Shown here one piece after another: positions 18,260 through 44,833 of a stretch of 64,000 nucleotides of DNA (position 1 is its first letter; each line of letters opens with the position of its first letter). A program made the position numbers and the translations under genes. Below the pieces are notes generated by a model. That model was not told where the DNA came from. It was given only the letters and a program-made list of their open reading frames with translations, and ran no database searches. The stretch covers positions 186,001 through 250,000 of the forward strand of contig NZ_CP089391.1 of the NCBI RefSeq assembly GCF_027594865.1. Reading direction: 5' to 3'. The DNA is from Bradyrhizobium xenonodulans. GTDB taxonomy: Bacteria > Pseudomonadota > Alphaproteobacteria > Rhizobiales > Xanthobacteraceae.

Positions 18260-18868
18260 CTACACCGCAACTAGCCGTTCGCGCCGCAGGAACGCAAGCA
18301 ACGGCAGCAGCGGCAGGCCGAGAATGGTGAAATGGTCGCCCTCGATACGCTCGAATAAATGGATGCCGAGACCTTCGAGCTGATAGGCGCCGACACTTGT
18401 GGTCACGGCATCGCCGGCGGCATCGAGATAGGCCGAAAGCTCGGCGTCGGTCATAGCTCGCATGGTCATACGGGCGACCGAGACGTCCTCGAAAGCAATT
18501 TTGCCATCTCGCGCCACGGCCACGGCGGAATTCAGCTCGTGGCAGTTGCCGGCGAGATCACGCAATTGCGCCAACGCCTGTGCGCGGCCGGCGGGCTTGT
18601 TGAAAAGACGATCGCCGAGAGCCAGCGTCTGGTCGGCGCCAATCACGTAGCTTCCCGGACGATGGACCGATACCGCCTTCGCCTTCTCGCGCGCCAGCAG
18701 CAGGCCGATCTCGCGTGGGTTCGAGAGTCTGGAGGCAGTCTGAATGGCGCGCTCGTCGATGTCAGCGGTAATCGCCTCGAATTCGAGCCCGGCATTGGCG
18801 AGCAGCGTTTTGCGCGCGCTGCTTTGGGAAGCCAGAATCAACGGAGACCTGCCGAGCCACAGACTCAT
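18260..18868 (-). CDS. maf: Maf family nucleotide pyrophosphatase
   Basis: 202 residues. Maf proteins hydrolyse nucleoside triphosphates, including modified or non-canonical nucleotides, to monophosphates. [14 protein letters not shown] is the N-terminal signature, ADIDERA the substrate loop, [12 protein letters not shown] the catalytic segment with the aspartate, and [18 protein letters not shown] the C-terminal motif. This divergent Maf subgroup is typical of rhizobia beside the origin. It lies between PPSR (8 bp) and coaE (23 bp). The exact nucleotide preferred is not deducible. Confidence 0.92.
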
Positions 18869-18876
18869 CGCCGAAA

Positions 18877-19716
18877 CTATTCCGTTGGCCGATGACGCTG
18901 GCGGTCACTGTAGAGCTTCATGATCGCCGCCGCGGTTTCCTCGATCGAGCGCCGCGTGACGTCGAGCAGCGGCCAATCGTGCTTGGCGCTCAGCTTGCGG
19001 GCGAACGCGACCTCCTCAGTGACCGACTGTTTGTCGGTGTAGGTGTCGCTGCCGGAATCGGCCCCCATCGAGAGCAGGCGATTCTGACGGATCTGGATCA
19101 GGCGTTCCGGCGTCGCGTGCAGGCTCACCACCAACGGCCGTGTCAGCTTCTCCAATTGCTCGGGCACCGGGATGCCCGGCACCAGCGGCACGTTGGCGGT
19201 GCGGATGCCGCGATTGGCCAGATAAATCGACGTCGGCGTCTTCGAGGTACGGGACACGCCGACCAGCACCACGTCAGCATCGTCGAGGCCTTCGACATGC
19301 TGACCATCGTCATGGATCATCGTGTAGTTCAGCGCATCGATGCGCTTGAAATATTCGGCATTGAGGACGTGCTGGGCACCGACGCGGCCCGTGGTCGCTG
19401 CTCCAAGATAGGCTTCGAACAATTGCATCACCGGCCCGATGATCGAGAGGCTCGGAACGTTGATCCCCTTGCACTTGTCCTCGAGCCTGGAGACCAGATC
19501 TTTTTCCAGCAGCGTGAACAGCACGATGCCCGGCGCCTCCTCAATCTCATCGAGCACACGATCGAGCTGCTTCTGGCTGCGCACCAGCGGATAGACATGC
19601 TCGACCGGGGTCACGTTGGCGTACTGCGCGGCAACGGCGCGCGCGACCGTGATCAGCGTCTCACCGGTGGAGTCGGAGACGAGGTGCAGATGGAAATAAT
19701 TGTTCGAGGTCGGCAC
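18877..19716 (-). CDS. ppsR: Pyruvate,phosphate dikinase/PEP synthase regulatory protein
   Basis: 279 residues from a GTG at 19716. This DUF299 bifunctional serine/threonine kinase and Pi-dependent pyrophosphorylase switches PPDK or PEP synthase off and on, using ADP as phosphate donor. [11 protein letters not shown] is the N-terminal signature and [21 protein letters not shown] carries the P-loop. [14 protein letters not shown] is a further family block. Its homologue is the gene next to the replication origin in Caulobacter and Rickettsia (RP001), so it marks the left edge of the candidate origin here. First gene of its transcription unit. Confidence 0.95.
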
Positions 19717-20018
19717 AAAATCCCTTTGTATGGAGTCGGTGTGGTTTGTGGATTTCTGTGGACCTTAACCTCTCGGAAAGGGTTGTGCGACACCAGGGGC
19801 GGGACAAGTGCCAATTTTCTTCACACCACTGCCCGTCTGAACAAGTCCGGCTGCCTCCTGAGAGGGAAACGGGATTGCGCGGACAACCCCCTTGATAAGC
19901 TGCCGACAGAAACGCGCAAGCCCTTGAAGCTGGCTGACTTATGGGAAGCGGGGCAGAGCTGTCGGGATATGTTGATGGATGTGAACAAGCGCGCGTGAAC
20001 GTGCGGACGGAATTGTGT

Positions 20019-20068
20019 GAGTCCAATCCACGGTCACATAGACTCAAACCTTAAGAATCTAAGATTCT
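20019..20068. promoter_or_regulatory. Cluster of four GANTC sites with perfect inverted repeat
   Basis: GAGTC at 20019, GACTC at 20041, GAATC at 20055 and GATTC at 20063 fall within 49 bp. The last two lie in the two arms of a perfect inverted repeat, AGAATCT, A, AGATTCT (20054-20068). GANTC is the target of the cell-cycle methylase CcrM in alphaproteobacteria. A random sequence would have about one per 256 bp. A fifth site is at 19733. The cluster sits in the candidate oriC. Confidence 0.6.
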
Positions 20069-20115
20069 AGATTTGAGGAAGGCGCTACGGACGGATATGT
20101 GTGCAGGGTAAGACC

Positions 20116-20130
20116 TTAACGAGTTCTTAC
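20116..20130 (+). promoter_or_regulatory. CtrA-like binding motif in candidate oriC
   Basis: TTAA, seven bases, TTAC matches the CtrA consensus TTAA-N7-TTAA at seven of eight positions. It is 46 bp upstream of the hemJ ATG and inside the candidate origin, where CtrA sites repress replication in Caulobacter. GTAAGA and TCTTAC also form an inverted repeat at 20108-20130. A single site is suggestive only. Confidence 0.35.
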
Positions 20131-20175
20131 TATCCCCAGCGGTCCCTGCACGGGGCAGAAATCCGGGCCCGAAAA

Positions 20176-20610
20176 ATGTTCGAAGACGTCTATCTCTGGA
20201 TCAAGGCGCTGCATGTGATCGCGGTCATCTCCTGGATGGCCGGCATGCTCTATCTGCCGCGGCTGTTCGTTTATCACTCCGAGGCCGAGATCGGCTCAAA
20301 ACAGTCGGAAACGTTCAAGGTGATGGAACGCCGGCTACTCAAGACGATCATCAACCCCGCCATGATCGTCACCTGGCTCGCCGGACTTTATCTGGCTTGG
20401 TCCGGCCACTGGTTCTCGTTCGGCTGGCTGCACGTAAAACTGGCACTGGTCCTGGCGATGTCCGCGGTCCACGGCTTTTTTTCCCGCTGGCTGAAGGATT
20501 TCGCCGCCGACCGGCGCCCGCGGAGCCAGAAATTCTATCGGATTATCAACGAGGTGCCGACTGTCCTGATGATTTTCATCGTCATCATGGTGATCGTGAA
20601 GCCGTTCTAG
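20176..20610 (+). CDS. hemJ: Protoporphyrinogen oxidase HemJ
   Basis: 144 residues from the ATG at 20176 (MFEDVYLWIKALHVIAVISW); the frame extends 25 codons upstream into the origin region without family sequence. HemJ is the quinone-linked inner-membrane enzyme that oxidises protoporphyrinogen IX in heme synthesis. Four hydrophobic helices, the conserved histidine in KALHVIAV and WMAGMLYLPRLFVYH are diagnostic. It lies on the right flank of the candidate origin, where hemE is usual in other alphaproteobacteria. The rho gene follows after 248 bp with its own promoter. Confidence 0.9.
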   Translation: MFEDVYLWIKALHVIAVISWMAGMLYLPRLFVYHSEAEIGSKQSETFKVMERRLLKTIINPAMIVTWLAGLYLAWSGHWFSFGWLHVKLALVLAMSAVHGFFSRWLKDFAADRRPRSQKFYRIINEVPTVLMIFIVIMVIVKPF

Positions 20611-20644
20611 GCAGCAATCGTGAACGATCGCTCAGCGCTTCGGC

Positions 20645-20673
20645 TTGCGGAGTGGGAAGCGATTTTCTATATT
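20645..20673 (+). promoter_or_regulatory. Probable sigma-70 promoter of rho
   Basis: TTGCGG at 20645-20650 and TATATT at 20668-20673 are separated by exactly 17 bp. The -10 matches TATAAT at five of six positions; the -35 matches TTGACA at three. Transcription would start near 20680, giving a leader of about 180 nt before rho, which is in keeping with the autoregulated long leaders of rho genes. Inferred from sequence only. Confidence 0.45.
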
Positions 20674-20858
20674 AGCGCTATCCCACCCAACGCAGGCGGA
20701 TGTGGTTGTGTCTGAGCTTTCCAGAGGCCGGACACCGCATCAGGTTTGAAGCCTCATCGGCACTTAACCTTGCCAGACCTGCGGACCTTATCTTCTCACG
20801 TCCGCATTTCAGAGCCTCCTCGCACCCCCTCCCAAGGTTACCCCACAGGACCACCCCA

Positions 20859-22124
<1,266 letters not shown>

Positions 22125-22144
22125 GTGCGGTGCAACAAGGCATC

Positions 22145-22175
22145 AGAGGGCGCCTCCGGGCGCCCTCTTTCTTTT
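22145..22175 (+). terminator. Intrinsic terminator after rho
   Basis: AGAGGGCGCC (22145-22154) and GGCGCCCTCT (22159-22168) pair perfectly over 10 bp around a TCCG loop and are followed by TTCTTTT. It lies 20 bp after the rho stop, so the mRNA for Rho itself ends by a Rho-independent signal. Confidence 0.9.
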
Positions 22176-22439
22176 GTGCACCTTTGCTGCGGAGACAAAG
22201 CAGCATGGCAGCCGGGCCGAGTACAAATCCGGTTTTTCATGAAGGTGTTGATATATTTCGATAATTCTTGACTTAAGCTCGTCGGTCTATTCCGGGCGCA
22301 TAGTCTTCTGCAGCAAAATGCTGCACTATATGCTGCATCGCAATATGGCTATTGCTGCGAGTCAGAGCGCAACAAAACGAAGTCGGCAAGGTCTCGAATG
22401 GGACGTTTGCGTTTTCTTCGCCAGCCGGACAAATAGGCC
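22176..22439. other. AT-richer gap upstream of mnmE with TGCTGCA repeats
   Basis: 264 bp with no supported gene and lower GC than its surroundings. TGCAGCA (22309-22315) and TGCTGCA (22319-22325) form a perfect hairpin with a three-base loop. TGCTGCA recurs at 22331-22337 and, as TGCTGCG, at 22353-22359. These could be a regulator site for mnmE or a structured leader. No clear -35/-10 pair was found. Confidence 0.4.
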
Positions 22440-23795
22440 ATGCATCCGCGAGACCAGACCATCTTTGCGCTGTCGTCCGGCCGTGCGCCGAGTGCGATTG
22501 CCGTGGTGCGTGTCTCGGGCCCGCAGGCCGGTCTGGTGTTGACGACGCTCGCGGGCAAATTGCCGGCGCCGCGGCAGGCCAGCCGTCGGCTGCTCCACGA
22601 TGGCGGCGGCCAGCCGATTGACGACGCAGTCGTGCTCTGGTTTCCGGGGCCGGGAAGTGCGACCGGCGAGGACATCGCCGAATTCCACGTTCATGGCGGC
22701 CGCGCCGTGCTGTCGGCGCTCCTCGCCGCGATTTCTTTAATTCCGAATACACGTGCAGCCGAGCCGGGCGAGTTCACGCGGCGCGCCTTCGAGAACGGCA
22801 AGCTCGACCTCACCGAAGCCGAGGGCCTCGACGATCTCATCCACGCCGACACTGACCGCCAGCGTCGCCAGGCGCTGCGGCAGTTGCAAGGCCTGCTCGG
22901 TGATCGCGCGCGTGATTGGCGCGAGCGGATTATCGCGGCGTCGGCCTTGATCGAAGCCGGCATCGATTTTTCCGATGAGGGCGATGTGCCGGCCGAATTG
23001 AGAGCGCCGGCGGTCAAGGCGATCAGAGCGTTGCATGATGAAATTATAAAAGTCCTTGCGGCACAGGGACATTCCGAACGTTTGCGTGACGGCCTGGTGG
23101 TTGCGATCGCCGGCGAACCGAACGTCGGCAAGTCGACGTTGATCAATCAGCTCGCCCGCCGCGATGTCGCAATCGTCTCGCCGTACGCCGGCACCACGCG
23201 CGACGTGATCGAGGTGCAGCTCGATCTCGACGGCTATCCGGTCACGGTGATCGACACGGCCGGCATTCGCGAGACCGACGACCCCGTCGAGCAAGAGGGC
23301 GTGCGGCGGGCGAAAGCGCGCGCCGAAGATGCGGATCTCGTGCTGTGGTTGGTCGAGGGAGAGCAGGCCGTCACTCCGGACGCGCTGCCGTCACTTCGGA
23401 GTTCCGGGGAGGATGATGGGTCCTTCGGTCAGGTCTGGATCGTGCGCAACAAGATTGATCTGAGCCAAGCCAGGGTCGCCGGGTCGCGGGGCGAGTTCGG
23501 AATCTCGGCGAGCCGGGGCGACGGCATCCCCGAGCTGGTCGAGGGGCTCGTGAAATTTGCGGCCGAGTTTTTCGGAGCCAGTGAGGGCGCCGTGGTGACC
23601 CGAGCCCGCCAGCGAGATCTGTTGAGCCGGGCATCAGAGAGCTTGCGCCGGAGTCTGGAGCTTGTAGAAGACGGCGAAGAGCTTGCCGCCGAGGAGCTGC
23701 GCGCCGCCGCTTATGCCCTAGGCCGGCTGCTTGGCCGGGTGGACGTCGAGGACGTCCTGGGGGCCATTTTCCAGAAATTCTGTATTGGGAAGTAG
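22440..23795 (+). CDS. mnmE: tRNA uridine-5-carboxymethylaminomethyl modification GTPase
   Basis: 451 residues. MnmE, with MnmG, makes the cmnm5 modification at wobble uridine 34 of several tRNAs. The N-terminal domain ([10 protein letters not shown], then [12 protein letters not shown]) binds the formyl-folate. The central helical domain holds a G domain with G1 GEPNVGKST at 225-233, G2 in AGTTRDV, G3 in DTAGIRET and G4 in NKID. The protein ends in FCIGK, with the conserved catalytic cysteine four residues from the end. Its partner gene mnmG is next, separated by a 488-bp gap that carries parS sites. Confidence 0.97.
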
Positions 23796-23838
23796 CGCTA
23801 GTACTACATTGTAGAACTAGGCCTTGTTCCATTTCTTG

Positions 23839-23854
23839 TGTTTCACGTGAAACG
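23839..23854. promoter_or_regulatory. parS site 1
   Basis: TGTTTCACGTGAAACG contains the perfect 14-bp palindrome GTTTCACGTGAAAC, the conserved ParB-nucleation site of chromosomal ParABS systems. It lies in the mnmE-mnmG gap, about 3.7 kb from the candidate origin and 4.1 kb from parB. Confidence 0.95.
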
Positions 23855-23867
23855 TGGATGGGACCGT

Positions 23868-23883
23868 TGTTTCACGTGAAACG
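23868..23883. promoter_or_regulatory. parS site 2
   Basis: TGTTTCACGTGAAACG again, with a perfect 14-bp core, 29 bp (centre to centre) from site 1. The close pair would let two ParB clamps load side by side. Noncoding position between mnmE and mnmG. Confidence 0.95.
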
Positions 23884-23960
23884 ACGCCTCGGCCCTTTGG
23901 TGCCATCTGCCGATCCGGGAGCAGTGACAGTCGAGGATGATAGGTTTCGCTCCCAATCCC

Positions 23961-24049
23961 CGTCGTTGCGAGGGGTCTAAGCGACGAAGCTATCCGGACT
24001 GCCCGAAGCAGAGGGATTCTGGATTGCCTTCACTACGCTCGCAATAACG
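23961..24049. repeat. Dispersed repeat with imperfect terminal inverted repeats
   Basis: CGTCGTTGCGAG (23961-23972) faces CTCGCAATAACG (24038-24049), matching at 10 of 12 positions. The internal GATTCTGGATTGC is shared with the element at 28970-29050, so the two belong to one family. Such REP-like hairpins are common in Bradyrhizobium intergenic regions. No coding capacity. Confidence 0.7.
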
Positions 24050-24121
24050 AGGCGGCAGCGGTGTTTTCGCGGAACAGCACCCGCGGAGCGGTAGAACCCC
24101 ATACCACGCTGCCAGCGATTT

Positions 24122-24137
24122 CGTTTCACGTGAAACA
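24122..24137. promoter_or_regulatory. parS site 3
   Basis: CGTTTCACGTGAAACA with a perfect 14-bp core. It lies 162 bp before the mnmG start, downstream of a dispersed hairpin repeat. Confidence 0.95.
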
Positions 24138-24212
24138 GCAATCCGTTCAATAACCTTTCTACTGTGCATGGGGTTGTTTTCGCGAAAATGTATTCCGGGG
24201 CTTCGCTTGCCC

Positions 24213-24228
24213 CGTTTCACGTGAAACA
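24213..24228. promoter_or_regulatory. parS site 4
   Basis: CGTTTCACGTGAAACA with a perfect core, 56 bp before the mnmG ATG. It may overlap the mnmG leader or promoter, so ParB binding could influence mnmG expression. Confidence 0.95.
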
Positions 24229-24283
24229 TGCGCCTCACAGTTTCCACTTCCGGCTTTCCCGGCTCTGGGATAGAAGTCCGCCC

Positions 24284-26164
24284 ATGCGCACAGAGCGAGA
24301 GAGTTTCGACGTCATCGTCATCGGCGGCGGCCATGCCGGCTGTGAGGCTGCGTCTGCGGCTGCCCGGATGGGCGCGACGACTGCTCTGGTGACGCATCGG
24401 TTCTCCACAGTCGGCGCAATGTCCTGCAACCCCGCCATTGGCGGTCTCGGCAAGGGTCATCTGGTCCGCGAAATCGATGCGCTCGATGGTCTGATGGGCC
24501 GGGTCGGCGATGCCGGCGGCATCCAGTTTCGCGTGCTCAATCGGCGCAAAGGTCCCGCTGTACGTGGTCCTCGTGCCCAGGCCGATCGGAAGCTCTATGC
24601 CGCCGCGATGCAGACGGCGATCCAGGAGACCGGGGGTCTGTTCGTCATCGAAGGCGAAGCCGACGAGCTGACCGTGGTTGACGGACGGGTGACCGGACTC
24701 CGCCTGGCGGACGGTCGTGAGCTGCGGGCAGGGGCCGTCGTCGTCACCACCGGGACCTTTCTCCGCGGACTGATCCATCTCGGTGAGAAGAACTGGCCCG
24801 CCGGCCGGGTTGGCGAGGCGCCTGCGATGGGTCTTTCCAGCTCCTTCGAGCGTGCCGGCTTCACCCTGGGACGGCTCAAGACCGGCACACCGCCGCGTCT
24901 GGACGGCACCACGATCGACTGGTCCGCAGTCGAGATGCAGCCCGGAGACGAGCCGCCGGAGCCGTTCTCGGTCATGACGGAGCGGATCACGACCCCGCAG
25001 ATCCAGTGCGGCATCACCCGGACCACCGCCGCGACCCATGAGGTGATCCGGGCCAATGTCCATCGCTCGCCGATGTACTCGGGCCAGATCAAGAGCAGCG
25101 GTCCCCGCTATTGCCCCTCGATCGAGGACAAGATCGTCCGCTTCGGCGATCGCGACGGGCACCAGATCTTCCTTGAGCCAGAGGGGCTCGACGACAGCAC
25201 GGTCTATCCCAACGGCATCTCGACCTCGCTGCCGGAGGAGGTTCAGCTCGCGATCCTCGCCACCATCCCGGGTCTGGAGGGGGTGAAGATGGTCCGTCCG
25301 GGCTATGCCATCGAATACGACCATATCGATCCTCGGGAGCTCGATCCGACCCTGCAGACCAAGCGTCTGCGCGGTCTGTTCCTGGCCGGACAGATCAACG
25401 GGACCACCGGATACGAAGAAGCTGCTGGGCAGGGCATTGTGGCGGGCCTCAATGCGGCACTCTCCGCTAGCGGCGGCCTGCTGACGGTATTCGACCGGGC
25501 CGACGGCTATCTCGGCGTGATGATCGACGATCTCGTCACCCGCGGCATCAGCGAGCCCTATCGGATGTTCACCTCGCGGGCCGAGTACCGGCTGACGCTG
25601 CGGGCCGACAATGCCGACCAGCGCCTGACCGAGAAGGGCATTGCCCTCGGATGTGTCGGCAATGCCCGGACCCAGCATCACCGCGCCAAGATGGGCGCCC
25701 TGAACGCGGCTCGGATGTTGTCGAAGTCGCTCACGATCACCCCGAACGAGGCGATCAAGCACGGGCTGTCCCTGAACCGGGATGGCCAGCGCCGCTCGGC
25801 CTTCGAGCTGTTGGCCTATCCCGATATCGGCTGGAGCCAGGTCCGTGCCATTTGGCCGGAGCTATCCGCCATCGATCCCGTCATCGCCACCCACCTCGAG
25901 ATCGACGCGAAGTACGATGTCTATCTGGAGCGCCAGAGCGCCGACGTCGAAGCCTTCCGACGCGACGAAGGGATGGTGCTGTCGGAGGTCGATTACCAGC
26001 AGGTCCCCGGTCTCTCCAATGAAGTGCGGGCCAAGCTGGAGAAGGCACGACCGTTTACGGTCGGCCAGGCTGGCCGGATCGACGGCATGACGCCGGCGGC
26101 GCTCGGCATCCTCGCGGCCTATCTCCGCCGTGAGGCGCGGAAGATCTCCAAGGCAATCGCATAG
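24284..26164 (+). CDS. mnmG: tRNA uridine-5-carboxymethylaminomethyl modification enzyme, FAD subunit
   Basis: 626 residues from the ATG at 24284 ([19 protein letters not shown]); an open upstream extension reads through a parS site and is not family-like. MnmG binds FAD and NADH and works with MnmE on tRNA wobble uridines. [10 protein letters not shown] at residues 14-23 is the dinucleotide-binding motif. [23 protein letters not shown] and [11 protein letters not shown] are MnmG signatures, and GTPPRLDG and [15 protein letters not shown] follow. The C-terminal helical domain binds MnmE. It ends 1 bp before parS site 5 and rsmG follows. Confidence 0.97.
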
Positions 26165-26165
26165 G

Positions 26166-26181
26166 CGTTTCACGTGAAACA
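26166..26181. promoter_or_regulatory. parS site 5, overlapping the rsmG start
   Basis: CGTTTCACGTGAAACA with a perfect core, one base after the mnmG stop codon. The GTG at 26174 inside the palindrome is the most upstream usable start codon of rsmG, so segregation site and gene start may be the same DNA. Confidence 0.95.
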
Positions 26182-26975: not shown

Positions 26976-27842
26976 ATGACCGTGATTGACGAGCCGAAGC
27001 AAGAACAGGCCCCAGAACCGACCAGCGACGTTCCGCATGGCCACCCGCGCATCCTGGCGTTGGCGAACCAAAAGGGCGGGGTGGGTAAAACAACCACAGC
27101 GATCAATCTCGGCACAGCGCTCGCCGCGATTGGCGAGCGCGTCCTGATCGTCGATCTCGATCCGCAGGGCAACGCCTCGACCGGCCTCGGCATCGACCGC
27201 CGCAACCGCTCCTGCTCGACCTACGACGTGCTGATCGGCGAATCGAGCTTGCGCGAAGCGGTGGTGTCGACCGCGGTGCCGCGGCTGCACATCGCGCCCT
27301 CGACCATGGATCTCTCAGGTCTCGAACTCGAGCTCGGCACCACGCCCGGCCGCGCTTTCAAGCTGCGCGATGCGATCGGCGCGCTCAACAACAATGTCTC
27401 GCCCGACGCCGACTACACCTATGTGCTGATCGACTGCCCGCCCTCGCTCAATTTGCTCACCGTGAACGCGATGGCTGCCTCCGATGCGATCCTGGTGCCG
27501 CTGCAATGCGAGTTCTTCGCGCTCGAAGGTCTGTCGCAACTGCTGCAGACGGTGGAGCAGGTGCGCTCGACGCTCAATCCGAACCTGTCGATCCACGGCA
27601 TCGTGCTGACCATGTTCGACTCGCGCAACAATCTCTCGAACCAGGTCGTCGCCGACGTCAGGCAGTTCATGGGCGAGAAGGTCTACAAGACCATGATCCC
27701 GCGCAACGTGCGCATCTCGGAGGCGCCGTCCTACGGCAAGCCGGTGCTGGTCTACGATCTCAAATGCGTCGGCAGCGAAGCCTATTTGCGGCTCGCCACC
27801 GAAGTGATCCAGCGCGAGCGCGAGTTGCGCGTCACGCATTGA
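26976..27842 (+). CDS. parA: Chromosome partitioning ATPase ParA
   Basis: 288 residues. ParA is the DNA-bound Walker-type ATPase whose gradient moves ParB-parS complexes to the new pole. The deviant Walker A KGGVGKTT is at residues 33-40. VDLDPQGNASTGLG is the A' motif, and YVLIDCPPSLNLLTVNA carries Walker B. A 20-residue acidic, proline-containing N-terminal extension precedes the core. It starts 28 bp after rsmG. A hairpin repeat separates it from parB. Confidence 0.97.
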   Translation: MTVIDEPKQEQAPEPTSDVPHGHPRILALANQKGGVGKTTTAINLGTALAAIGERVLIVDLDPQGNASTGLGIDRRNRSCSTYDVLIGESSLREAVVSTAVPRLHIAPSTMDLSGLELELGTTPGRAFKLRDAIGALNNNVSPDADYTYVLIDCPPSLNLLTVNAMAASDAILVPLQCEFFALEGLSQLLQTVEQVRSTLNPNLSIHGIVLTMFDSRNNLSNQVVADVRQFMGEKVYKTMIPRNVRISEAPSYGKPVLVYDLKCVGSEAYLRLATEVIQRERELRVTH

Positions 27843-27851
27843 AGAGGCCGT

Positions 27852-27931
27852 GGGTGGGCAAAGGCGTCTTCGCCGTGCCCACCATCTTCCGCACATAACC
27901 AACTGGTGGGCACGCTTCGTTTTGCCCACCC
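27852..27931. repeat. Hairpin repeat between parA and parB
   Basis: A left arm at 27852-27884 (GGGTGGGCAAAG onward, ending GTGCCCACCA) faces a right arm at 27904-27931 (TGGTGGGCACGC onward, ending TTTGCCCACCC). Each arm is itself partly palindromic. It resembles a dispersed Bradyrhizobium repeat that encodes nothing. It lies 10 bp after the parA stop, where it could modulate the parA/parB expression ratio. Confidence 0.65.
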
Positions 27932-27982
27932 TACGACAATTCAGTTCTGGAGTGCGCTCAAGTGAATCCAAGGGAGCTGGCG

Positions 27983-28870
27983 ATGGCCGACGAAGCGCGT
28001 TCGCGACTGGGCCGGGGTCTTGCAAGTCTGATCGGTGACGTCGGCGGCGAGGCTCAGCATGTCGATCGTCCGCGCGCGCAGCGCAAGGTGCCGATCGAAT
28101 TCATCAAGCCCAATCCGCGCAACCCGCGCCGCACCTTTTCGGACGCGGAGCTGAAGGAGCTCAGCGATTCGATCCGGCAGCATGGCGTGATCCAGCCGAT
28201 CGTGGTGCGTCCGGTGAAGGGCGCCCAGGATCGCTTCGAGATCATCGCCGGCGAACGGCGCTGGCGTGCCTCGCAAATGGCCGGCCTGCACGAAGTGCCA
28301 ATCGTCCCGGTCGACATCAGCGACAGCGATGCGCTGGAGTTCGCGATCGTCGAGAACGTGCAGCGCGAAGACCTCAACCCGATGGAAGAGGCGCTGGGCT
28401 ATCACGCGCTCGCCAACGAGTTCAAACGCAGCCAGGACGACATCGCAAAAGTCGTCGGCAAGAGCCGCAGCCACATCGCCAACATGATGCGGCTGACGAA
28501 ACTGCCGACGGAGGTGCAGGCCCTGATCACGAGCGGCGAGCTGACGGCCGGCCACGCCCGCGCGCTGATCGGCGTGCCCGATCCGCTCGCATCCGCGAGG
28601 CGCATCGTCGAGGAAGGTCTCAACGTCCGCCAGGCCGAGGCGCTCGCGCATGAAGAAGGCGTGCCCGAGCGCAAGCCGCAGAAGGCGCGCGCGACCGGCG
28701 GCAAGGAAAAGGACCCCGACACGATCGATCTCGAGAAGCGCGTCAGCGATGCGCTTGGTCTCAAGGTCACCGTCAATCACCGCGATCCCGGCGGCTCGGT
28801 CCAGATCAACTACCGTAACCTCGATCAGCTCGACGAGGTGATGAAGCGGCTCGCGAAGGGCGCGCTGTAG
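27983..28870 (+). CDS. parB: Chromosome partitioning protein ParB
   Basis: 295 residues from the ATG at 27983, which has AGGGAG well placed upstream; an in-frame GTG at 27962 would add seven residues. ParB binds parS, closes as a CTP-dependent clamp and spreads. RLGRGLASLIGD at the N-terminus is the ParA-contacting segment. GERRWRAS at residues 90-97 is the CTP-binding motif, and QDDIAKVVGKSRSHIANMMRL (151-171) is the helix-turn-helix. The C-terminal dimerisation domain ends at residue 295. Its parS sites lie 1.6-4.1 kb upstream. Confidence 0.97.
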   Translation: MADEARSRLGRGLASLIGDVGGEAQHVDRPRAQRKVPIEFIKPNPRNPRRTFSDAELKELSDSIRQHGVIQPIVVRPVKGAQDRFEIIAGERRWRASQMAGLHEVPIVPVDISDSDALEFAIVENVQREDLNPMEEALGYHALANEFKRSQDDIAKVVGKSRSHIANMMRLTKLPTEVQALITSGELTAGHARALIGVPDPLASARRIVEEGLNVRQAEALAHEEGVPERKPQKARATGGKEKDPDTIDLEKRVSDALGLKVTVNHRDPGGSVQINYRNLDQLDEVMKRLAKGAL

Positions 28871-44658: not shown

Positions 44659-44833
44659 GACCATTCTGGACGCCAGCACTCTTGGAACAGCCGGTCGCAC
44701 CAAGGCGCCGGCGGGAAGCGGTTCAGTTCACCATAGATAGGGCGAGGTTAAGACGCGATTAACCATCGGCGGGCGGGCCCGTCCAGAGCGGGAATAATGA
44801 GGCCGGATAACAACGGGATGCGGGGCCTTCTAG

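Follow-up and report, generated by a model that had tools for sequence, protein, structure and literature searches.

Where replication of the Bradyrhizobium xenonodulans chromosome begins is a question raised by a short gap between ppsR and hemJ, which an original prediction, built on gene order and motif content, had put forward as the chromosomal origin, oriC. The gap lies in a 64,000-nt window (the whole stretch of DNA analysed here), which covers bases 186,001-250,000 of the genome, one contig of 8,276,659 bp with dnaA at its beginning. In the parts of the cited papers available to us, the origin of Caulobacter and Rickettsia is described as bounded by hemE and the RP001/DUF299 homologue (PMC1914354), and for the Bradyrhizobiaceae Ori-Finder 2008 places an oriC containing TGTTTCACGTGAAACA beside gidA/mnmG and proposes TGTTTCACG as the DnaA box, a proposal made for ten genomes that also sets the oriC by the switch of the GC-disparity curve (PMC2275245). 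The genome paper of Oligotropha OM5 applied this rule (PMC3091675), GC skew together with signature sequences served to predict an origin for Bradyrhizobium sp. S23321 (PMC4036050), and a 2026 paper reports that some annotated DoriC origins mismatch the true ones (PMC13342612). The main text of Ori-Finder 2022 mentions neither TGTTTCACG nor Bradyrhizobium, and in the titles and partial abstracts covered by our searches we found no relocation of the Bradyrhizobiaceae origin to the ppsR-hemJ gap. That an origin sits at this place by synteny is already known from other alphaproteobacteria; what seems new within these searches is the hemE-less arrangement, the spacing architecture and a likely mistake in the printed rule of the family. 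Arguing from the sequence, we put the probability that the ppsR-hemJ gap is the chromosomal oriC of B. xenonodulans at about 85%.

Both the coordinates and the NCBIfam profiles agree with the 459-bp gene-free gap and the flanking gene order that had been predicted. On the ppsR side, NCBIfam profiles support a PpsR-family protein, Maf, CoaE, DnaQ and SecB; on the hemJ side they support HemJ, Rho, MnmE and MnmG, followed by RsmG and a ParB domain. The two genes that bound the gap form a divergent pair, and the dnaA gene, at genome base 22, is 206 kb away. The best named matches of PpsR are from Bradyrhizobium, led by B. nitroreducens TSA1 at 99%, with the organism's own genome possibly omitted from the comparison. 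A scan of positions 18800-24800 against Rfam returned two matches, both under the gathering scores. The gap, its flanks and its motifs are, in window coordinates:

19717..20175 (genome 205,717-206,175), no strand: the ppsR-hemJ gap, proposed oriC, gene-free, 459 bp
18877..19716, minus strand: ppsR (DUF299/COG1806 family), NCBIfam NF003742 over cut-off, start at 19716
20176..20610, plus strand: hemJ, TIGR00701 over cut-off, start at 20176
19747..19762, minus strand: weaker DnaA-box-like pair, AAATCCACA then TCCACA (TGTGGATTTCTGTGGA on the plus strand), the first word with two mismatches
19817..19825, plus strand: DnaA box 1, TTCTTCACA, one mismatch to TTATNCACA
19980..19988, minus strand: DnaA box 2, TTGTTCACA, one mismatch to TTATNCACA
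20041..20080, no strand: AT-rich element, candidate unwinding site, with GANTC at 20041, 20055 and 20063
20116..20130, plus strand: CtrA-like site of doubtful role, one mismatch

We measured the DnaA box content of the gap against 54,674 windows of 459 nt, taken in 50-nt steps from part of the same genome. Boxes 1 and 2, which are in inverted orientation, lie within one mismatch of TTATNCACA, and at least two such boxes occur in 0.15% of the background windows; at up to two mismatches the gap holds five words, a number reached by 0.76%. It is the pair rather than the single box that is informative, because one-mismatch boxes across the 64-kb window are about as frequent as expected (10 versus 10.6). 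The region from -557 to +420 kb has 200 predicted intergenic gaps with a length of 200 nt or more, and only two of them carry at least two one-mismatch boxes, namely ppsR-hemJ (two) and rpsT-dnaA (four). The AT-richest 60 nt of the gap, starting at about 20017-20022, are 61.7% AT, which 0.12% of 60-nt windows reach, and five GANTC sites compare with 0.76 expected at the genome rate of 1.65 per kb. The box-like words, AT-rich stretch and GANTC sites on which the original prediction drew are thus all present above background, and the gap combines the box cluster of a DnaA-dependent oriC with a putative unwinding element at a set place.

The CtrA-like motif that had been listed alongside them is present, at 20116, but with a single site carrying one mismatch it is weak as an argument for an origin and leaves CtrA unsupported as the main regulator. 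No IHF-like site within one mismatch was found in the gap, and the combination of one CtrA-like site and zero IHF-like sites is evidence against Caulobacter-style CtrA control. Elsewhere in the window, a perfect TTAA-N7-TTAA CtrA-like site lies at 44748-44762, and the window as a whole has six CtrA-like sites within one mismatch versus 1.25 expected, a count that no shuffle reached.

The comparison across Bradyrhizobium covered 25 genus genomes (own included) and 81 loci (own plus 80 from named records), which together gave 105 distinct gap sequences, 100 of them measurable over all segments; the segment statistics omit L197, L198, L231 and L246, where the box pair is present and GACTCAAA absent, and L159, where GACTCAAA is present and the box pair absent. 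At least two one-mismatch DnaA boxes are found in the gap in 25/25 genus genomes and 81/81 Bradyrhizobium-type loci, and the box 1/box 2 pair itself is present in 104 of the 105 gaps, all except L159. The distance between the two boxes hardly varies in the 81 loci (163 bp in 62, 164 in 13, 162 in 5 and 153 in 1). Over the 100 measurable gaps, the ppsR start lies 84-113 bp from box 1 (100 in 80 gaps, SD 5.1), box 1 lies 153-164 bp from box 2 (163 in 79, SD 1.1), box 2 lies 60-71 bp from GACTCAAA (61 in 93, SD 1.0), and GACTCAAA lies 97-190 bp from the hemJ start (SD 15.6), where some of the spread may reflect start-codon choice because aligned start positions were used. Part of the constancy must be kinship, since the ppsR start-box 1 segment also has a modal length (80/100) and many records are close kin. 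What counts is that the inner segments have a narrower spread than the flanking ones, and a tight core within looser flanks suits a putative nucleoprotein machine better than it would a pair of back-to-back promoters.

Other elements of the gap are kept to varying degrees. The 9-mer of the first word of the weak pair occurs in 92% of the 105 gaps and the pair pattern in 78/81 loci, AGACTCAAACC is present in 77/81, and every one of the 81 gaps has 3-7 GANTC sites. The AT maximum falls no more than 30 nt from GACTCAAA in all 77 loci that carry it; in L171-L173, where the gaps may lie outside the covered sequence, GACTCAAA was not found. The CtrA-like pattern TTAA-N7-TTA[AC], in 65/81 loci, is not kept in the more distant sequences. 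Compared with seven distant loci (L247-L253), the ppsR-hemJ gap shows an identity of 0.47-0.53, hemJ-rho 0.69-0.72, rho-mnmE 0.28-0.47 and mnmE-mnmG 0.18-0.30; L246, at 0.81, was left out of these ranges. What is conserved is the blocks and their spacing; over its full length the ppsR-hemJ gap is not the most strongly conserved of its neighbourhood. The L246 record, titled Frankia sp. RB7, has a Bradyrhizobium-type locus and a PpsR 93% identical to that of the window, and is probably a mislabelled or contaminated assembly.

The synteny with Caulobacter and Rickettsia that had been invoked for this gap holds for one side of the gap, which adjoins ppsR, the RP001 (DUF299/COG1806) homologue; the usual neighbour hemE, about which the original prediction says nothing, is missing and is found at genome 1,739,033 instead. 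In a family sample, 60 of 61 genomes match a 701-bp query, mostly via its coding flanks, and the AT-rich block (query 391-505) is also matched in 9/59 same-family genomes of other genera. By the match coordinates, the distance between ppsR and hemJ is about 0.4-0.6 kb in some genera; in many others it is about 1.4-1.6 kb. We read the coding content of the extra kilobase in two loci outside the family, L169 and L170, which belong to other families of the order: it encodes HemE (TIGR01464 over cut-off), situated between the gap and hemJ as in the Caulobacter/Rickettsia arrangement. From this gene order, the ppsR-hemJ gap is most likely the hemE-ppsR gap after loss of hemE, which ties it to the Caulobacter/Rickettsia origin. 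The L169 and L170 gaps are almost completely covered, and each contains a single box within one mismatch and no pair; the paired-box module is therefore shown only within Bradyrhizobium. The lack of a pair in these two hemE-bearing outgroup gaps counts against the oriC reading, as does the absence of hemE from the locus.

The published rule points to a different gap, about 4 kb to the right, and the following features bear on it (the mnmG start that bounds this gap is the start chosen for the profile search):

23796..24283, no strand: mnmE-mnmG gap, the place favoured by the 2008 rule, with parS at 23840, 23869, 24123 and 24214
26167..26180, no strand: fifth parS site, between mnmG and rsmG, exact core
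26976..28870, plus strand: parA-parB, likely binders of the parS sites; ParB TIGR00180 over cut-off, ParA below curated cut-offs

The genome has five copies of the exact core GTTTCACGTGAAAC, of which four are in the mnmE-mnmG gap and the fifth precedes rsmG; all lie 3.7-6 kb right of the ppsR-hemJ gap and next to parAB, so that parS sites and parAB together lie within about 3.7-8 kb of it. The core 16-mer of these palindromes is what we take to be the classical parS consensus. The ParA candidate has matches to ParA-type families, all below curated cut-offs, and ParB is close to Caulobacter ParB (6t1f), with which it shares the GKSR and GHAR motifs; in the available part of one report, R173 and G201 of the Caulobacter protein are described as absolutely conserved in ParB (PMC7383237). 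By sequence and context, with a palindromic core near parAB and a parS-type ParB, the mnmE-mnmG and mnmG-rsmG palindromes are parS sites. At least some parS sites lie within 7 kb of the ppsR-hemJ gap in 10/11 complete genus genomes, a count that includes G004, and two of the five G010 sites, only with contig ends joined; in none of the 81 loci does the ppsR-hemJ gap itself contain a parS core.

An oriC in the mnmE-mnmG (gidA) gap, with TGTTTCACG as the DnaA box of the family, is what Ori-Finder 2008 proposes for its ten Bradyrhizobiaceae genomes (PMC2275245), and the proposal has been used for Oligotropha OM5 (PMC3091675); according to the available text it also lies beside the switch of the GC-disparity curve, although skew cannot separate the mnmE-mnmG from the ppsR-hemJ gap, because the two are only about 4 kb apart. 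The ppsR-hemJ gap does not have the TGTTTCACGTGAAACA palindrome next to gidA that defines this oriC. We compared the mnmE-mnmG gap in 75 loci, it being unmeasurable in 6 of the 81. There, 338 of 358 TGTTTCACG halves lie within full parS palindromes adjoining parAB, whose ParB keeps the GKSR and GHAR motifs, and all six examined among the remaining 20 are near-palindromes. A DnaA box within one mismatch is absent from the B. xenonodulans mnmE-mnmG gap and from 72/75 loci, the gap length ranges from about 150 to 700, and its identity to the seven distant loci is the low one given above. The AT maximum is higher in the ppsR-hemJ than in the mnmE-mnmG gap in 61 of the 75 loci, equal in 10 and lower in 4. 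With the TGTTTCACG words in parS palindromes and DnaA boxes lacking in 72/75 gaps, we rejected the mnmG-adjacent origin, which we regard as very improbable. In one genome (G010), contig 1 starts about 120 bp ahead of a parS site in the mnmE-mnmG-equivalent region (bases 1-220); its base 1 was perhaps set by an origin predicted at that region.

GC skew was computed contiguously from -557 to +420 kb and sampled over 20 of every 80 kb for the rest, so that the stretches 0.42-0.8 and 7.3-7.72 Mb are represented by sampled skew only. The minimum that the original prediction had looked for at the gap does fall close by in the contiguous curve, at 199,283, 6.4 kb from the gap (keto minimum at 197,888), but it is weak: 299 of 5,000 block shuffles were as deep, the bootstrap interval is very wide, and the sampled curve round the circle, with its peak at about 4.0-4.1 Mb, dips a little further at 0.56-0.64 Mb than it does at 0.16-0.24 Mb. 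A two-slope fit places the change at -263 kb, again with a very wide interval, and this and the weak skew count against the oriC reading. A k-mer strand classifier, correct on 66, 63 and 62 of 77 held-out 20-kb stretches for k=4, 6 and 8, showed no clear change point. Neither predicted gene-strand bias nor fourfold-site skew reached a minimum near the ppsR-hemJ gap, and 60 polar octamers scored together gave a minimum at 295,579.

The KOPS-like octamer GGGCAGGG is distributed 110:9 on the leading strand in training stretches without the origin region and flips between 4.019 and 4.084 Mb in the sampled stretches, marking the terminus; it is a handy marker of both origin and terminus in Bradyrhizobium. 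In B. xenonodulans, 25 of 26 such sites between -556 and +168 kb point leftward, a polarity that puts dnaA, at 0, in the left arm, and in G021, where dnaA is at 738 kb, the sites either side of it are likewise mostly leftward.

This polarity bears directly on an origin at dnaA, in the rpsT-dnaA gap, as in many non-alphaproteobacterial bacteria. The 600 nt upstream of dnaA contain no DnaA box, but the full 1.25-kb gap (genome -1,252 to 0; about 15,407-16,659 in L108) has four within one mismatch, more than the two of the ppsR-hemJ gap, which makes dnaA a serious rival and counts against the oriC reading; part of the gap is also matched in 25/25 genus genomes. Against this, no polarity change occurs at dnaA, since the KOPS-like sites on both sides of it are mostly leftward, and those between dnaA and the ppsR-hemJ gap run 34 left to 13 right in five genomes. 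At dnaA the cumulative GC skew stands 1,646 higher than at its minimum, about 210 kb separate dnaA from the parS sites, the region matches in 0/16 other genomes of the order, and its boxes are possibly explained by dnaA autoregulation. The DnaA of B. xenonodulans keeps the GGRDHTTV motif, which fits ordinary DnaA boxes, and the distance from dnaA to the ppsR-hemJ gap is 195-234 kb in 11/11 genomes. On strand polarity, GC skew, parS distance and the lack of a match in the 16 other genomes of the order, we rejected dnaA as the origin and give it very little credence.

A further reading takes the gap for no more than the shared regulatory region of two divergent genes, its boxes serving transcription control, with the origin elsewhere, perhaps 100-130 kb to the right. 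Promoters probably do lie in the gap, because ppsR and hemJ are divergent, and it is not until about 125 kb to the right of the gap that the KOPS-like polarity settles, which counts against the oriC reading: in five genomes, sites no more than 10 kb to the right are rightward in 11 of 11 cases, those at 10-125 kb are leftward in 20 of 25 and rightward in five as tabulated (for G021 the tabulated sites stop 26 kb to the right of the gap, without the rightward sites 1,014,979 and 1,047,214), and those beyond are mostly rightward. Since these sites are, we infer, largely inherited by shared descent, the five genomes are not independent and come nearer to one observation. Cumulative GC skew rises from -2,312 at 200 kb to -1,155 at 340 kb, as a right arm should, all exact parS cores are beside the ppsR-hemJ gap, and only it and rpsT-dnaA hold at least two boxes among the 200 intergenic gaps. 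This reading is, on this balance, highly unlikely. Over genome positions of about 216-330 kb (window about 30,000 onward), the KOPS-like polarity mostly runs the wrong way and the GC skew is right-arm-like.

Together, the box enrichment, the spacing kept in 80/81 loci, the nearby parS sites and parAB and the synteny with hemE-bearing relatives make the ppsR-hemJ gap the best-supported candidate for oriC. If so, the two inverted boxes (19817 and 19980) would be bound by DnaA, as would weaker ones like those at 19747-19762; their constant separation of about 163 bp would give the bound DNA one defined shape, and DnaA would melt the AT-rich GANTC element 61 bp past box 2, allowing helicase loading and the departure of two forks. 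Re-initiation may be gated by CcrM methylation at the GANTC sites, and ParAB, acting at the parS sites that lie 3.7-6 kb to the right, would segregate the origin once it has been copied. What is observed here is the sequences with their enrichment, spacing and neighbours; DnaA binding, unwinding, initiation and a part played by methylation are predicted from motifs.

Taking these readings jointly, we think it probable that the 2008 rule mistook a centromere for the origin, and that the true Bradyrhizobium oriC, related to the Caulobacter origin but without hemE, is organized as a fixed module of the weak pair, inverted boxes 163 bp apart and, 61 bp further on, an AT-rich element open to methylation. 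Carrying no more than one CtrA site, such a module would be fired and reset differently from that of Caulobacter. The module and parS comparison covers Bradyrhizobium alone and the 2008 rule the Bradyrhizobium/Rhodopseudomonas/Nitrobacter family. Origin coordinates feed read-coverage estimates of growth rate, replichore analyses and genome numbering; if the 2008 rule marks the centromere, coordinates derived from it miss the origin by about 4 kb, and its 'species-specific DnaA box' is mistaken. Short as this distance is, the correction would alter what to clone, footprint and mutate in work on replication control in Bradyrhizobium, and it would extend to relatives of the genus if the reading holds there. 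The fixed 163/61-bp geometry offers a concrete, testable model of an alphaproteobacterial origin nearly free of CtrA sites.

Set beside known systems, the ppsR-hemJ gap shares its neighbourhood with the Bradyrhizobiaceae oriC of 2008, about 4 kb away, but is a different intergenic gap with a different DnaA box. The mnmE-mnmG and mnmG-rsmG palindromes, with their parS-like core beside parAB, resemble a bacterial parS centromere of the ParABS type, a likeness that belongs to the neighbour of the proposed origin and not to the gap itself. Relative to the origins of Caulobacter crescentus (Cori) and Rickettsia prowazekii, the Bradyrhizobium locus differs in being without hemE and in its inverted box pair at fixed spacing, absent from the two outgroup gaps; and whereas the Caulobacter-type origin has, in the available description, five CtrA sites and one IHF site, the gap has one CtrA-like site and no IHF-like site. 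In Caulobacter, parS is reported to lie about 8 kb from the origin, in the part of the report available (PMC5815017). The likeness to these origins consists in the position on the same side of the COG1806/ppsR homologue, in hemE-hemJ-rho downstream in relatives, and in DnaA boxes, an AT-rich stretch and GANTC sites with parS a few kilobases off.
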